A DNA stretch of 44,092 bases. Source: Flavobacteriales bacterium. Its GTDB lineage: Bacteria > Bacteroidota > Bacteroidia > Flavobacteriales_D > Sanyastnellaceae. Shown one piece after another: positions 8,813 to 17,926 of this stretch; position 1 is the stretch's first letter; each line of letters starts with the position of its first letter. The notes under the pieces were generated by a model. The model was not told where the DNA came from and made no database searches. It saw only the letters and a program-made list of their open reading frames with translations. The DNA lies in NCBI GenBank assembly GCA_947488195.1, contig CANKYR010000006.1:1-44092 (forward strand). The letters are read 5' to 3'. A program made the translations under genes and the position numbers.

Positions 8813-9445
8813 ATGAATAAACAAAACGCCACCCACTACCACATTGTCTTGGACAAAAGTGGAAGTATGCAATCGCATTACAAAGAAACCCTTGAAGGGT
8901 TGAATGAAAAGCTTCATTCAATAAAAGCCATTCAAGAGCGCAACTTAGATCAGCCGATCTATGTATCGCTAACACTTTTCTCCGACAGTCCTGAATTGGT
9001 CTTTGAAAATCTTCCTGCAGCAGAATTACCTGTGCTTACGGAAAAAGATTATGTGTTAGACGGAATGACAGGATTGCTTGACGCCATAGGCACCGTGATT
9101 AACCGCATGAAATATGCAGTTGGACGTGACCTGAAGGAAAAGAACGGAACGGTTATGATTGTTATTTTCACAGATGGAGGAGAGAACGCCTCACGTATGT
9201 TCAAATACCAAGAGATCTCATCTTCGATTAAAGAATTAGAGGCAACCGGAAATTGGAACTTCGCTTTCATAGGAGCCGACATAGATGCATGGGGAGCTGC
9301 TAGCAGACTGAACATGCAACAATCACGTGTGTATTCTTCTCAAAAAGCGAATATCAAAGAAACCATGAACTTTGCCTCTGAAGCTTTAGAGAATTCCATA
9401 CGTCAAAAAAGATCTGGAAAAAATTGGGAAGGATTTAATGAATAA
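8813..9445 (+). CDS. Cytoplasmic VWA-domain protein
   Basis: This 210-residue protein is a single von Willebrand A domain with a complete MIDAS metal site. D-K-S-G-S is near residue 14-18 in HIVLDKSGSM, the MIDAS threonine is in LDGMTGLLDA, and the aspartate is in IVIFTDGGENAS. The fold continues through NFAFIGADIDAWGAA. There is no signal peptide or TM segment, so it probably acts in the cytoplasm in metal-dependent protein binding. Similar stand-alone VWA proteins sit beside ATPases in MoxR-type and Ter-type systems, but the neighbour here is ABC-type, not MoxR. It is 70 bases after the ATPase stop, with a weak CATCTTTG -7-like element in the gap, so it may be partly independent. A terminator follows. 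Confidence 0.82.
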   Translation: MNKQNATHYHIVLDKSGSMQSHYKETLEGLNEKLHSIKAIQERNLDQPIYVSLTLFSDSPELVFENLPAAELPVLTEKDYVLDGMTGLLDAIGTVINRMKYAVGRDLKEKNGTVMIVIFTDGGENASRMFKYQEISSSIKELEATGNWNFAFIGADIDAWGAASRLNMQQSRVYSSQKANIKETMNFASEALENSIRQKRSGKNWEGFNE

Positions 9446-9468
9446 GAATTTTCTAATTCTTTCATTTT

Positions 9469-9502
9469 ACACGAGTTCAGAGATGGGCTCGTGTTTTTTT
9501 TT
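9469..9502 (+). terminator. Intrinsic terminator after the VWA gene
   Basis: ACACGAG (9469-9475) pairs with CTCGTGT (9488-9494) and is followed by a 9-T run (9494-9502). A small AAGAATT/AATTCTT hairpin lies just before it (9444-9461). Confidence 0.8.
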
Positions 9503-9617
9503 ATTGAGTACTACCTCTTTGCTAAATAATACAAACCTATCGATAACACTCCAAGGGGCAAATAGGGGGAAATCACAATTCCTTGACACTTATTAAATCT
9601 AATAATAGCAATATTTA

Positions 9618-9628
9618 CCCCCCCCCCC
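9618..9628 (+). repeat. Poly-C tract of 11 bases
   Basis: Eleven consecutive Cs in AT-rich DNA, 55 bases before the adhesin ATG and about 16 bases before the TAACTTTA -7-like element. It is the only G/C homopolymer I noticed on this scale in the window, and a possible slippage site. Confidence 0.9.
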
Positions 9629-9644
9629 GCGAATTATTTTAACC

Positions 9645-9652
9645 TAACTTTA
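9645..9652 (+). promoter_or_regulatory. Possible -7 element of the adhesin operon
   Basis: TAACTTTA matches TAnnTTTG except for the last base. No clear -33 is present at the normal distance, because the poly-C tract lies there. Confidence 0.35.
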
Positions 9653-9683
9653 CCGAAGTATTTATTAAATACAAAAATATTTT

Positions 9684-12600
9684 ATGAGACAAGTACCTCG
9701 TCAATTTTTCATTGCCACTGCATTGTTTTTATTTTGGGCCATTCAATCCCAAGCGCAAACCCCTACTGCTAGCTTCGTTGCAGTGCCCGCGGCTTCCGCT
9801 GGAATTGTTACTGTATGTCAAGGACAAACCGTTACTTATATTAACAATTCCACAAATACCACCGCGAGCTCAACATATACGTGGAGTTTTGGAGCAGGAT
9901 CCCTTCCAAATACAGGCAGTGGTTCAAATCCGCAATCTACCGTTTACAACACCGTTGGAAATACCACAGCAACCTTAACGGTGAATAACAACAATGGTAA
10001 TCCAACTTCTACCTTCAGTTTAACCGTTCAAGTTATTGCAAGCCCGGTCTCAAATCTTACATTAGCAAACACAGGACAAGGCTACGGCACAGCAACTCAA
10101 GGAGGATTGACCATTTTTAAAAACTGCAACGGATTAGATACCATTTCATTCAGTTTCAATTCGACCTACCTCAACACCACCGTACAAACATTTAACTGGG
10201 GAGACGGAAGTGCTGTGGAAAACCAATCGAACATGGTTGGTTCAAACATTAGCCATAACTATCCTCTCGGTCAATTTACATTAACACACACCGTTAGTTT
10301 ATCGAACGGATGCGTGGTCACAAAAAACTATATCGTTTTTAATGGAAGCGCGCCGCTCGTAACCGTTTCCGGTTCTGGACAAACAACTTGCTTGCCTTCA
10401 CCTTTTAGCATTGATGTATTATCGAACGATGTTCCTATCGATTACACAGTATCCTTTTCAGACGGTTCAACCGCATCAACTTTCACCACTGCGAATGACA
10501 CTACGGTTAGCCATATCTTCAACACCTCTTCTTGTGGAGTCGACTATTTTTACGCACCTGGTTTTCCACCTATTGAAAATGCCTTTTCAGCAACAATCGT
10601 CGCGCAAAACGCATGCTCCAGTAACGGTTTGCCAACAGTAGTTACAGTAGGACCCATTACCATTTCTACGGGAACAAACGCGGCATTCACCTACGAACCA
10701 GCCTCACCTATTTGCCTCAACGAACCGGTTTCCTTCACCAATACAAGTTCTGGTGGAGAAAACATTAACGCAAGTGGCTGCGATGACACTTACTCTTATT
10801 ATTGGACTGTCGATGAACCAAGCGGCTATAATGTAAGCAGCGGAACATTCGGTTCTTCCAACGGATTTTCAGGAAGTTCACAGGACTATTCACAATGGAC
10901 AAATGGTACTGATCTCCTTGAATTAACTTTCGACACTCCGGGAACCTACCACATTTGGATGCACACTTCTAATTTTTGCGGAGCAGACTCCGTGCTTCAA
11001 ACAGTAGTGATTAATCCTGTTGGAACAGTGATCATGAATCCAACGGAACAAACCATTTGTAGCGGCGAAACATCAGCCATTTTCACGCTTACAGGAACCA
11101 TTCCCTCGTACACCATCAATTGGAACGTATCTAACACTTCAAACGTATCTGCTGTTTCTCCTTCAAGTGGAAGCGGCGCAAGCCCGTTGAATTCGCCGCA
11201 ATTCACCTTAACGAACACTTCAAACAATGTTGGTTTTGTTGAAATAAGTGCGACCGTAGGCTGTACGAATGAACCCCCTGTGTTGCATACCATCTATGTT
11301 GAGCCGCAGGCCAATGTTCAAGCTACTCCTTCTTCAATGAATATCTGTAGCAACGAGGAAGCAAGTTTTCAAATCTCAAGCAACCTTAACAATATAAGCT
11401 TCACATGGACTGCAACTGGACCAAATACCATAACTGGATTCAGTGATGGCAACGGAACAGCCATTACTCAAACATTAGTCAACAACGGCAATGAAGCCGA
11501 CACTGTTTTTTATCAAATTGAACCTTCCGGAGTGCAATGCCCTGGCAACAATGCAACGGTTTATGTTGTTGTACAACCCAACTTAAGTATTTCTTCCAAT
11601 GTTGATTTAATCGGCTGTGCGAATTTCGTTTTCGATCCCTTAGATTATATCACAACTCCAACAGGCGCCACATTAACCTGGGACAACTCGAACACCTCAA
11701 TTGGCTTAGCCGTTTCAGGAAACGGTAACGTTCCAACATGGACTGCTCCGGAGAACAATACCGGTTCAAACATAACGGGAACAATAACTGTGACCGCTCA
11801 GATAAACAATTGCCCTGTAGCAACCGATGATTTCACAGTCACAGTAAGCCCTTCACCAACACTAACAACAACGGTTAGTCCCGACGGTGGCCTCGACTGT
11901 GTAACTTCTCTAGCCGTTATTTCATCGACCCCAACGCCAAACAACGCAACTCTCGTATGGAGCGGTGGAACAATTGTTTCCGGAGCCACTTCCACAACCA
12001 CAACTGTAAGTGAAGCAGGAACGTATAATGTTATTGTTACTGACCCTGGCACCACTTGCGTATCGCAATATAACGTAACCATTAACCCTCCTACTCCTAT
12101 CAACATCACCAATACTACATACACAGATGTTACGTGCTTCGGAGCGAATGACGGAACCATTCAGGTGAATACGGATTCTCAAGATGCCGTTACTTATGCT
12201 TGGACGCCAAATGCATCGAACAGCGGAACAGCTTCAAACCTTGCTCCTGGAACGTACTCTGTAACTGTAACAAACTTGTCTGGTTGCATAGACAGTGACT
12301 CGTTCGACATTAGTGAGCCAACACCTATAGTTGTTTCTCTCATTGACACGCTCCGCTCTGAGTGCGGAGAGGCAAATGGATATATTCAAGTTGGCGCTTC
12401 CGGAGGAACACCGGGATATTCATTTGATTGGATTGACGAAGCTAATGGCGCAACTTTAAATTCAATAGATGCCGGTACCTATACTGTAGTTGTTTCCGAT
12501 CAAAACAGTTGCGAAGCGCAACTTTCAGTCGCCATTGGTTGCACACCGCTTATACCTGTTGAACCTGTGCAATTCATTTCACCAAATGGAGATAATACAA

Positions 12601-12830
12601 ATGACAATTGGATTGTTACAAATATTGAGCTATATCCTGAAAACGAAGTTTGGGTATTCAACCGATGGGGAACGCTTCTCTACTACGCTTCGCCATATGA
12701 AAATACATGGCAAGGCACAAATGACAAGGGCAACGGAGAAATTTTACCCGCAGCAACCTATTTCTATCTCATAGATACCCATAAAAAATCACAAGATCCA
12801 TTCAAAGGATTTATTGAAGTACAACCATAA
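9684..12830 (+). CDS. T9SS type B sorted PKD/SprB-repeat adhesin
   Basis: This 1048-residue protein has a signal peptide (MRQVPRQFFIATALFLFWAI, cut after QSQA). A PKD-like domain follows at about 28-115 (TYTWSFG ... NTTATLTV). A long Thr/Ser/Asn-rich stretch of Ig/PKD-like modules runs to about 810. Two SprB-like repeats (about 812-900 and 900-965) show TCFGANDGTIQV, APGTYSVTVTN and AGTYTVVVSD. The end (about 975-1048) is the type B gliding-associated CTD: ISPNGDNTNDNW, VWVFNRWGTLLYY and YFYLID. This CTD directs export by the type IX system and attachment to the cell surface. It starts a three-gene unit with a PorP/SprF protein and an OmpA protein, the standard arrangement for such cargo. An 11-C tract lies before it. 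Confidence 0.93.
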   Translation: MRQVPRQFFIATALFLFWAIQSQAQTPTASFVAVPAASAGIVTVCQGQTVTYINNSTNTTASSTYTWSFGAGSLPNTGSGSNPQSTVYNTVGNTTATLTVNNNNGNPTSTFSLTVQVIASPVSNLTLANTGQGYGTATQGGLTIFKNCNGLDTISFSFNSTYLNTTVQTFNWGDGSAVENQSNMVGSNISHNYPLGQFTLTHTVSLSNGCVVTKNYIVFNGSAPLVTVSGSGQTTCLPSPFSIDVLSNDVPIDYTVSFSDGSTASTFTTANDTTVSHIFNTSSCGVDYFYAPGFPPIENAFSATIVAQNACSSNGLPTVVTVGPITISTGTNAAFTYEPASPICLNEPVSFTNTSSGGENINASGCDDTYSYYWTVDEPSGYNVSSGTFGSSNGFSGSSQDYSQWTNGTDLLELTFDTPGTYHIWMHTSNFCGADSVLQTVVINPVGTVIMNPTEQTICSGETSAIFTLTGTIPSYTINWNVSNTSNVSAVSPSSGSGASPLNSPQFTLTNTSNNVGFVEISATVGCTNEPPVLHTIYVEPQANVQATPSSMNICSNEEASFQISSNLNNISFTWTATGPNTITGFSDGNGTAITQTLVNNGNEADTVFYQIEPSGVQCPGNNATVYVVVQPNLSISSNVDLIGCANFVFDPLDYITTPTGATLTWDNSNTSIGLAVSGNGNVPTWTAPENNTGSNITGTITVTAQINNCPVATDDFTVTVSPSPTLTTTVSPDGGLDCVTSLAVISSTPTPNNATLVWSGGTIVSGATSTTTTVSEAGTYNVIVTDPGTTCVSQYNVTINPPTPINITNTTYTDVTCFGANDGTIQVNTDSQDAVTYAWTPNASNSGTASNLAPGTYSVTVTNLSGCIDSDSFDISEPTPIVVSLIDTLRSECGEANGYIQVGASGGTPGYSFDWIDEANGATLNSIDAGTYTVVVSDQNSCEAQLSVAIGCTPLIPVEPVQFISPNGDNTNDNWIVTNIELYPENEVWVFNRWGTLLYYASPYENTWQGTNDKGNGEILPAATYFYLIDTHKKSQDPFKGFIEVQP

Positions 12831-12837
12831 GAATCAA

Positions 12838-13779
12838 ATGAAAATGAAAAAAATATACTTTCTATTATTGCTTTTCGTTGGATCATTTGCTTCCAACGCA
12901 CAGCAAGACCCGCAAAGCTCCTTCTATTTCAACAATCCACTTTCGTACAATCCAGCATATGCCGGAACACGCGGAACGCTGAACATGAACATGGTTCATC
13001 GCTCACAATGGATAGGCTGGGACGGAGCCCCTTCAACACAATACATCTCAGTTCATGCACCTGTCGCAAGACAGAGAATAGGACTTGGCACAAATTTAAC
13101 TTTTGACAAAACAGGCGCGCGTAATTCAATCGACTGGATGAATCACGCTTCTTTTCAAATGCAATTGAATCCGAACAACCTTCGTTTATCCCTGGGCGTT
13201 TCAGGAGGCATTCAGAAATTTCAATATGATTTTAACGGACTTTCGGTTACCAATCCAAACGACCCTAACTTCACAACACCTTACAACAAATCACAAGCTA
13301 ATTTTGGCGCAGGCGCTTATCTGTACAAAGTTGCAAGTGACAACCATGTTCGTCAAGCCTCATATTTCGTTGGACTTTCCGTCCCTCATCTGATAGAAAG
13401 AAACATAGACAACAACATTGGAAATGCTATAACACAGCGTCATTACTTCCTTACAGGCGGATATGTTTTCCCGATTAACTCGGTTACCGATATTCGAACG
13501 TCAACGCTGATGAAATTCACTCAAAACAGCCCTGCTGTTATGGAACTTAACGTCTCTGCTTTGTTCTACAAACAGTTTTGGATTGGCAGTATGTACCGCA
13601 TTGGTGAAGGTCTTGGTTTTAATACATCCTATCAGATAAATGACAATATGATGATTGGTTACGCATTTGATCTTCCAATGAACAGCATGAAGTTAAATCA
13701 ATGGGGAAACCACGAAATAGTTATCTCCTTTGACCTTCGCCCTCGTAATAACGCATTTGTAAGTCCACGATATTTCTAA
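12838..13779 (+). CDS. PorP/SprF-family type IX secretion membrane protein
   Basis: A typical PorP/SprF protein. It has a signal peptide ending SNAQQ, then QSSFYFNNPLSYNPAYAGTRG with the family hallmark NPAYAG, the MVHRSQWIGWDGAPST segment, and a beta-barrel pattern to the end. I chose ATG 12838 (MKMKKIYFLLLLF) over ATG 12814, which lies in the upstream gene and would add a polar stretch before the signal. ATG 12844 is also possible. SprF-type proteins partner with a specific type B CTD protein for its secretion or surface anchoring, here presumably the adhesin directly upstream. It is an outer-membrane protein, with the OmpA gene 6 bases downstream. Confidence 0.93.
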   Translation: MKMKKIYFLLLLFVGSFASNAQQDPQSSFYFNNPLSYNPAYAGTRGTLNMNMVHRSQWIGWDGAPSTQYISVHAPVARQRIGLGTNLTFDKTGARNSIDWMNHASFQMQLNPNNLRLSLGVSGGIQKFQYDFNGLSVTNPNDPNFTTPYNKSQANFGAGAYLYKVASDNHVRQASYFVGLSVPHLIERNIDNNIGNAITQRHYFLTGGYVFPINSVTDIRTSTLMKFTQNSPAVMELNVSALFYKQFWIGSMYRIGEGLGFNTSYQINDNMMIGYAFDLPMNSMKLNQWGNHEIVISFDLRPRNNAFVSPRYF

Positions 13780-13785
13780 TTTATC

Positions 13786-15945
13786 ATGAAAAAAATATTC
13801 ATTTTTCTCTTCTTGTTTTGCGCCTCTATTACTTCGAATGCACAAGCCTTCAAAGAAGATTACGCCAAATCATTGTCAGCTCAATTCAAATTCGTTGAAG
13901 CCTATCCTGTTTGGGCAGATCTCTCTGATAATTTTGTAAAAAAACAAAAAGGCGATTGGAGCTACCTCAGAATGGCTACTGAAGCCGCCTACAACTCAGA
14001 ACAATATAAAAATGCGCTTCATTGGAATTCGATTATAACAAGAGGTAATCAAGCTCTACCGGCGGATTGGACGTTACATTTCGAATTACTTCGTATGAAC
14101 AACATGCATTCGCTTTTGGTAGCTTCGGTAGATTCTGCTTTGACGCTTATTCCTGCAGAAGCTGCTATTCTTGAATGGAAAAAACAAGCTCCTACTATTG
14201 TATCTTATTTGCAAGACACGAGCGAGTTCGAAGTAAAAGATTTTAGAAATGTATCGAAAGGTGAAGAGTTTGCTGCAGTTCCTTATGAGAAAGGATTGGT
14301 TTTCGTTACCTCCGAATTCAATACTGGGTTTTTAGCTCGAAAGGACACCTGGACGGGACAAAACTATTATGAACTTACCTTTATTAAAGATGCGAATTCT
14401 CCTTATGATTCGCATTCGGCCATAGGCAAATTGAAAAACAACGACGTGTGGAATGAAATTGAACACACCTATTCTCATGACGGACCTATTTCATTTAACA
14501 AAGATTTTACTAACGCTTTATTGACACGCAATTTCGAAGAGTTAGACACGATTGCACGCGTAAAGTATGCTCGCTTAAAACTTATATTATTCAAGAAAGA
14601 AGAAGGCAAATGGATCGAAGATGTAACCTTCAATTTTAACGATAAACATTTCTCAACTGGACATGGTGTATTCGATGTGAATGGCAATATCATTTTCGCA
14701 TCTGACAGACCCGGTGGACTTGGAGGTTCAGACCTTTATAACGTTTCATACACAGACGGAAAATGGTCGGTTCCAAATAATTTAGGCAAATACGTGAACA
14801 CTTCATCAGACGAGTTATTTCCATTTGTAGATAGCAACGGAACAATGTACTTTTCCTCCAAGGGATGGGTCGGACTAGGCGGTCTTGATGTATTTTCAGC
14901 CAACACCGCTGGAACACCTAACCACATTGGCATTCCAATTAACACTTCAAGTGATGATTTCGCATTTTACCTCGATGCCGAAGCAGGCACTGGATACTTG
15001 TCTTCAAACAGAAATTCACACAAAGACCAAATCTTCAAAATCTCTACTCCTGTTTACGATATTGAGCTTGAAATTATATTGACGGCTTGCGACAAAAAGC
15101 CCATAGAAAACGCCACAATTGAAATAAAAAACAAGCTTAGCAATACCACTATTTCCCAAAAGACCGATAAAGAAGGAAAGGTACTTTTAAAGCCTAGACT
15201 CAAAGATGAATTCGAAATTTCTTATTCAGGAAATGAGCTCTACGCCTCAAGTAAGAGCCTTCCTTTCAACGCAACTTCTGAGGGGAAGTTTAAAATTAAT
15301 TTGGAATCGAATTATTTGAAATCAAATCAAACTATAACCCTACTCGACGAAAATGGCAAACCACTTGTTGGAAGTCTGATTCAAATTAAATCAAAAGACA
15401 ACACTGTTAAAAAGGCAAACACGAACGAAGATGGTGTGTATTCGTGGTCTAGAACCAGCACCGAATCTGTTCTTACCGAAATAAATTGCAACACCGTAAG
15501 TTATGAGGACCATATGATTAAACTTGACGGAAGCGACTGTAACGCTCCGCAAAATTATCGTGTGACCATGCAAAAAATGTCAGACGAGAAATTTGTTAAG
15601 CTCGACTTGGTTCTCTACGATTTCGATAAGTATTTTTTACGCACAGCCAGCGAAAAAGAACTTGATAAACTTATTCAATACATGATGGAAAGACCTGAAT
15701 TAATTGTTGAATTGTCTTCACATACAGATTGTCGCGGAACTAATAGCTACAACGAAGTGCTATCGCAAAACAGAGCGCAAAGCTGTGTGAATTACATCAT
15801 TAAAAAGGGGATTTCAAAAGATAGAATTATAGCAAAAGGATACGGCGAAAATCAACTCACAAATAAATGTTCTGACGGTGTAAATTGTACAGAAGAAGCG
15901 CATCAGGCGAACAGAAGAACGGAGTTGAGGTTTGTTATAAAATAA
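13786..15945 (+). CDS. OmpA-family protein with propeller repeats
   Basis: This 719-residue protein has a signal peptide (MKKIFIFLFLFCASITSNAQ) and a TPR-like helical region to about 150. PD40/WD40-type beta-propeller blades follow (about 235-415), for example SDRPGGLGGSDLYN and FSSKGWVGLGGLDVF. Next are one or two carboxypeptidase-regulatory/CNA-like sandwich domains (about 425-590). The C-terminus is an OmpA peptidoglycan-binding domain (about 605-719) with LSSHTDCRGTNSYN, LSQNRAQSCVNYI and HQANRRTELRFVIK. Proteins with this layout (PorE/SprE-like neighbours) sit with PorP/SprF genes and anchor surface machinery to peptidoglycan. It is the last gene of the adhesin triad and converges with the transporter gene. 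Confidence 0.9.
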   Translation: MKKIFIFLFLFCASITSNAQAFKEDYAKSLSAQFKFVEAYPVWADLSDNFVKKQKGDWSYLRMATEAAYNSEQYKNALHWNSIITRGNQALPADWTLHFELLRMNNMHSLLVASVDSALTLIPAEAAILEWKKQAPTIVSYLQDTSEFEVKDFRNVSKGEEFAAVPYEKGLVFVTSEFNTGFLARKDTWTGQNYYELTFIKDANSPYDSHSAIGKLKNNDVWNEIEHTYSHDGPISFNKDFTNALLTRNFEELDTIARVKYARLKLILFKKEEGKWIEDVTFNFNDKHFSTGHGVFDVNGNIIFASDRPGGLGGSDLYNVSYTDGKWSVPNNLGKYVNTSSDELFPFVDSNGTMYFSSKGWVGLGGLDVFSANTAGTPNHIGIPINTSSDDFAFYLDAEAGTGYLSSNRNSHKDQIFKISTPVYDIELEIILTACDKKPIENATIEIKNKLSNTTISQKTDKEGKVLLKPRLKDEFEISYSGNELYASSKSLPFNATSEGKFKINLESNYLKSNQTITLLDENGKPLVGSLIQIKSKDNTVKKANTNEDGVYSWSRTSTESVLTEINCNTVSYEDHMIKLDGSDCNAPQNYRVTMQKMSDEKFVKLDLVLYDFDKYFLRTASEKELDKLIQYMMERPELIVELSSHTDCRGTNSYNEVLSQNRAQSCVNYIIKKGISKDRIIAKGYGENQLTNKCSDGVNCTEEAHQANRRTELRFVIK

Positions 15946-17756: not shown

Positions 17757-17926
17757 GCAATGCTACGCAAGACGCTTCACGAGATGTTGCACAAGATGCT
17801 ACGCAAGACGCTTCGCGAGACCTTTCGAAGAATCTTACAAAGTATCTTGTAACACATCTTTCGAAGAATCTTACAAAGTATCTTAAGAAGTATCTTGCAA
17901 AGCATCTTTCGAAGAACATATCTTTG
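17757..17926. repeat. Tandem array of a degenerate 12-bp repeat
   Basis: About 13 copies of a 12-base unit with consensus NATCTTNCNAAG, for example CATCTTTCGAAG, AATCTTACAAAG and TATCTTGCAAAG, with a G/C-richer left half (ATGCTACGCAAG, ACGCTTCGCGAG). One unit is 11 bases. It occupies the divergent region between the DAEYKA gene and rlmD. The unit is nearly palindromic around CTTTCGAAG. A shorter relative is at 5320-5357. Confidence 0.8.
17919..17926 (+). promoter_or_regulatory. -7 element of rlmD inside the repeat array
   Basis: TATCTTTG matches TAnnTTTG exactly and is the last unit of the 12-bp array. Transcription would begin near 17931, at or next to the GTG start codon, so the mRNA may be nearly leaderless. 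Confidence 0.5.

Follow-up and report, generated by a model that had tools for sequence, protein, structure and literature searches.

A run of eleven cytosines before a type IX adhesin operon may be a young, slippage-prone promoter repeat in a Flavobacteriales genome

Why does a run of eleven cytosines stand directly before a large adhesin gene, and could changes in its length tune the expression of that gene? The run, here called C11, lies in the window (the whole 44,092-nucleotide stretch that was analysed), which is contig 6 of a draft Flavobacteriales genome (2.19 Mb, 159 contigs, completeness 85%). A sequence-only reading had proposed possible phase variation of a triad of adhesin genes through this tract, and the layout that it described holds: the eleven Cs are present (Table 1), 16 bases (9629-9644) separate them from a TAnnTTTA box, TAACTTTA at 9645-9652, and the adhesin gene opens after 55 bases (9629-9683), with its ATG at 9684. 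The triad itself was also recognized correctly, as its genes encode a PKD/CHU_C type IX adhesin, a PorP/SprF protein and an OmpA-family protein. Specifically, the large secreted protein carries a T9SS sorting domain (TIGR04131, 56.7 bits, cut-off 35; PF13585, 81.1, cut-off 27), and the adjacent genes match PorP/SprF (TIGR03519, 234.5 bits, cut-off 90.55) and OmpA (PF00691, 61.5, cut-off 27.2), the two properties that define a type IX secretion adhesin-PorP/SprF-OmpA gene triad.

Table 1. Features around C11 in the window, with loci from other genomes of the family in the last two rows
Feature	Position	Strand	Description
vWA-domain-like gene	8813..9445		Pfam matches below curated cut-offs
Intrinsic terminator of vWA gene	9469..9502	+	11-bp stem + T9
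Upstream block	9570..9610	+	about -87 to -47; TTGACA at 9583; 40/41 bases identical in G006
C11 tract	9618..9628	+	homopolymer of eleven Cs
Candidate -7 box TAACTTTA	9645..9652	+	5/6 match to TAHHTTTG, usual final G absent
Secreted protein, 1048 aa	9684..12830	+	PKD domain, SprB-repeat-like match, CHU_C / T9SS type B sorting domain
PorP/SprF family type IX secretion membrane protein	12814..13779	+	profile matches
OmpA-family protein	13786..15945	+	PorE-like match below that model's cut-off
Tracted signal-peptide genes			L188 (=L133), L191, L134 (G019); L189, L192 (G063)
tRNA-Met C10 loci			L087, L089, L091, L149, L151, L154, L157, L160, L162, L175

C11 is an outlier in its own genome. It is the only C/G run of at least 8 in the draft (four overlapping matches, all within C11), and the genome's run spectrum (72 places) falls from 50 runs of length 6 and 8 of length 7 to none of lengths 8-10 before the single run of 11. 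About 0.006 runs of at least 11 would be expected by geometric extrapolation from lengths 6 and 7, and this expectation, together with the spectrum, rules out chance as the origin of the length of C11. The tract therefore has the repeat length, beyond chance, of an SSR-mediated transcriptional phase-variable (contingency) locus, and the adhesin, PorP/SprF and OmpA genes have the surface or phase-variable type of function found at such loci. The five further PorP/SprF genes in the draft have no C/G run of at least 8 nearby, because the genome has no other such run. C11 is less unusual within its family, where C/G runs of at least 10 are present in 59 of 114 genomes. No second copy of the C11 region was found in the same assembly. 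The mismatch-repair gene MutS is present and intact, and loss of mismatch repair was rejected on this ground.

Does C11 belong to the triad? The hairpin behind the preceding gene has a z-score of -4.3, with 0 of 200 shuffles folding equally well, and a gene that ends in so strong a terminator leaves the triad in need of its own promoter. An Rfam L20-leader match at 9403-9506 spans this terminator and was ignored, since it scores 27.4 bits against a gathering threshold of 58.7. The extent of the control region is indicated by a sister genome, G006 (CANIBZ010000001.1), a Flavobacteriales MAG in which the triad is kept and the adhesin is 91% identical to that of the window. Upstream DNA homology with G006 starts at 9570 and continues through the triad, so 9570-9683 belongs to the triad; among the 114 family genomes, G006 is the only other one in which the control-region DNA was found. 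The block at 9570-9610 is well conserved but not unique, because 1010 of 16900 windows of 41 columns in the regions aligned to G006 hold at least 40 identities. Runs of GGGG and GGGGG lie at 9555-9570, 50-60 bases before C11 and just outside the G006-conserved part. Further along the window, 17760-17916 consists of short tandem repeats close to an ORF end, and aligns to several offset places in the orthologous region of G006.

The promoter itself was predicted from Flavobacterium-type anatomy. In F. johnsoniae, transcription starts 4-5 nt after a -7 box TAHHTTTG, leaders average 33 nt and the signal at -33 is only weak (PMC6847099, in excerpt), and this consensus was used for a box search over 9504-9683. 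From TAACTTTA, the best match there, the start is predicted at about 9657 with a leader of 27 nt, and C11 would span -39 to -29 relative to that start. This agrees with the earlier placement of the tract at the -33 element or in the spacer. G006 also has no TTTG at -33, so C11 replaces no identifiable -33 box. Shuffling these 55 bases yields a 5/6 match to TAHHTTTG in 44% of cases, so the argument for the box is its conservation and not the quality of its match: G006 has TAAATTTA at the same place, with a predicted leader of 26 nt. At the tract position, G006 has two Cs between flanks that are conserved on both sides, and the distance from the block to the -7 box is 34 nt in the window but 29 nt in G006, a difference of half a helical turn. 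A tract at the orthologous locus of relatives, which would be supporting but is not strictly required of a contingency locus, was accordingly not found in G006.

Other tracts in the genus behave in a similar way. A C12 tract in G006 (L112, 2072-2083) lies 101 bp before a lipocalin-like lipoprotein gene and is absent from the G004 orthologue (88% identical), where the flanks align around a shorter, non-C sequence. In G004, a C9 tract precedes a PKD protein gene by 93 bp; the nearest relative with the orthologous gene, G005 (92%), has no tract there, the alignment ends just downstream of the tract, and the sole C/G run of at least 8 in G005 is located elsewhere. Thus, in three of three orthologous comparisons, the tract is in one species and missing in the next. 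Further tracts in the genus are intragenic, for example a C14 in a TonB-like proline stretch of G001.

The tracts of G004 and G006, which lie upstream of secreted-protein genes, suggested that long C/G tracts might be specially associated with surface genes, but no such association was found in a family-wide survey. The survey covered 80 tracts of at least 10 among the places listed, including C11 itself (10 of the 59 genomes have no places there, and for others the list gives the first places only); G099, with runs of 41 and 12 Cs that are likely artefacts, was excluded before counting, and one coding tract (L100) lies directly next to a stretch of N and could stem from scaffolding. With genes taken as greedy ORFs, and in loci of GC at most 0.48, a limit chosen after the list was seen (33 tracts, 30 minus tRNA ends), 20 of 30 tracts are noncoding, compared with 75 of the 282 control runs (length 4-5) from those loci (Fisher p 3e-5). 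Over all GC contents, tRNA ends included, 41 of 80 tracts and 822 of 989 control runs are coding. Noncoding tracts lie in the 250 bp before a gene not significantly more often than control runs do (12/20 versus 39/75, p 0.62), and those upstream of genes are not enriched before secreted-type proteins (5/12 versus 15/39, p 1.0; "secreted" being a crude hydrophobicity count and not a trained predictor). Family tracts therefore tend to stay out of coding DNA, the pattern expected from drift and frame constraint, and do not favour the promoters of surface genes, which weakens any inference from position to function. A conserved C10 about 200 bp before a START-like gene was considered as a shared regulatory tract but belongs to a tRNA-Met gene, whose 3' end it forms. 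Such ends make up 10 of the 80 surveyed tracts; this run of ten at the 3' end of tRNA-Met (CAT) is common to several genera, a stable and structure-bound C10.

How, then, might C11 act? We tentatively prefer the explanation that C11 is slippage-prone and has a graded effect on transcription of the triad. C11 would have arisen recently as a simple-sequence tract between the conserved block and the conserved -7-like box, and replication slippage would add or remove a C in a minority of cells. Each C gained or lost would change the distance between the upstream block and the -7 box by one base, or about 34 degrees of helix, and this shift would alter triad transcription by degrees, like the sabA T-tract in Helicobacter pylori. 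C11 may thus be a young promoter repeat that possibly tunes the triad, and is a candidate expression switch for the adhesin operon, with possible cell-to-cell variation. There is evidence on both sides. The tract is the sole C/G run of at least 8 and an outlier in the run spectrum, the terminator and the homology from 9570 assign the control region to the triad, the block, the TAnnTTTA box and the leader length are conserved in G006, and the two spacings differ by half a helical turn. The genes downstream encode surface proteins, frame breaks occur at tracts of secreted-protein genes elsewhere in the family, and there is a mechanistic precedent (PMC4081817, in excerpt). On the other hand, the same flanks occur in G006 with no tract, and the survey found no enrichment upstream of genes or of secreted-protein genes, both of which argue against a selected switch. 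SSR-using species usually carry several such repeats, and the lack of any other run of at least 8 in this genome argues in the same direction. The presence of MutS also counts against this explanation, as do the missing G of the -7 box and the ease with which shuffling produces a similar box.

It is quite possible that C11 is instead an inert by-product: a run of Cs that arose by chance and lengthened in noncoding DNA, where the gain or loss of a base disrupts no reading frame, and that leaves expression unchanged. Runs of at least 10 in 59 of the 114 family genomes would fit, as would the mostly noncoding position of tracts outside tRNA genes in AT-rich loci, with no promoter or secreted-gene preference, and the three orthologous comparisons, which resemble fast birth and loss. 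However, C11 is only 16 bases from the -7 box and is flanked by conserved segments, where spacing changes commonly matter, and a run of 11 is far beyond its own genome's spectrum. It is unlikely that transcription starts at or upstream of C11, from the TTGACA-type block, with the poly-C in the 5' leader and any effect of it exerted on the RNA via initiation slippage or leader structure. Although conservation in the control region is highest at 9570-9610, which also has a perfect TTGACA, no TAHHTTTG-like -7 was found at a suitable distance after it; the best candidate matches at 4/6, and its TAGC puts a G at a position that is almost never G in F. johnsoniae (PMC6847099, in excerpt). Moreover, a sigma-70 scan found no + strand promoter, and the leader has no unusual fold (z -0.82). 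Least probable, and very unlikely in our view, is an assembly or consensus artefact, in which the true length is other than 11 or mixed strains were collapsed. The fragmented and incomplete state of the draft leaves room for this, and the 41-C run of G099 is hard to believe real, but C11 lies inside a contig of 44 kb, the sequence on either side of it is conserved, and the assembly has no second copy.

A clearer contingency pattern than that of C11 is found in another genus of the family. G019 and G063, which belong to one genus, have a set of paralogous genes for secreted proteins, each about 500 aa long, with a G8-G10 tract inside the signal peptide or shortly behind it. All five copies that carry a tract have the signal peptide and the mature part in different frames on the two sides of it, whereas four tract-free members (G062, G006, G016 and G044) are open from the signal peptide and have no C/G run of at least 6 in their loci. 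Judged from sequence, these genes are candidate translational contingency genes, and the frame breaks suggest that, in this family, C/G tracts of 8-10 gain or lose bases; homopolymer sequencing error is a possible alternative source of the breaks. In one of the proteins, the mature part matches a type A sorting domain at 22.6, just below the cut-off of 23.

How does C11 compare with known systems? Unlike C11, the repeat of Neisseria meningitidis nadA is a tetranucleotide, and it works with the NadR repressor. The opc gene of N. meningitidis has a poly-C promoter, and the porA and opc tracts are located between -35 and -10, whereas C11 would overlap the -33 position, upstream of the main part of the spacer. 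Like the poly-G promoter of porA (PMC3639595, in excerpt), the predicted promoter at C11 would have a C/G homopolymer and serve a surface protein. The nadA repeat causes differential spacing of distal promoter elements, and C11 would likewise change the spacing of upstream elements at an adhesin promoter according to repeat number (PMC2791445, in excerpt). In H. pylori sabA, a promoter T-tract acts as a rheostat; as predicted for C11, a homopolymer stands beside the core promoter of an adhesin gene, and its length would shift the alignment of an upstream element with the core promoter, but sabA has a T tract, a sigma-80/70-type promoter, and proven length variation with graded output (PMC4081817, in excerpt). 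Within the same phylum, Bacteroides phase-varies surface components with invertible promoters, through recombinase-driven inversion and not slippage (PMC11868660, in excerpt).

In the excerpts available, the SSR phase-variation literature concerns Neisseria, Helicobacter, Campylobacter, Bordetella, Treponema and others; at the level of titles and abstract openings, homopolymer-promoter phase variation was not found for Flavobacteriales. A poly-C rheostat on a type IX adhesin operon would be slippage-driven transcriptional phase variation in this order and, together with the G-tract genes, would mean that the family uses homopolymer slippage on several surface genes; we regard this reading as a whole as doubtful. 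Such a rheostat would fall in a phylum where phase variation is known mainly via DNA inversion. If the tract varies, slippage would let a free-living member of the Flavobacteriales switch or tune one of its type IX adhesins, as host-adapted bacteria do with theirs. The G8-G10 signal-peptide genes of the related genus offer an easier test of slippage phase variation in the phylum.

Two further tracts deserve mention. In G003 (contig C175, locus L050), a G11 at 1133-1143 falls in the final codons of a gene for a LuxR-type response regulator, so that a change in length would alter the C-terminal tail only. In G051 (L126), a 13-long C/G run at 1501-1513 lies between two divergent genes. One of them, at 89 bp, encodes a NIDO-domain secreted protein, the other is 31 bp away, and TAACTTTG lies 8 bases past the run on one side.
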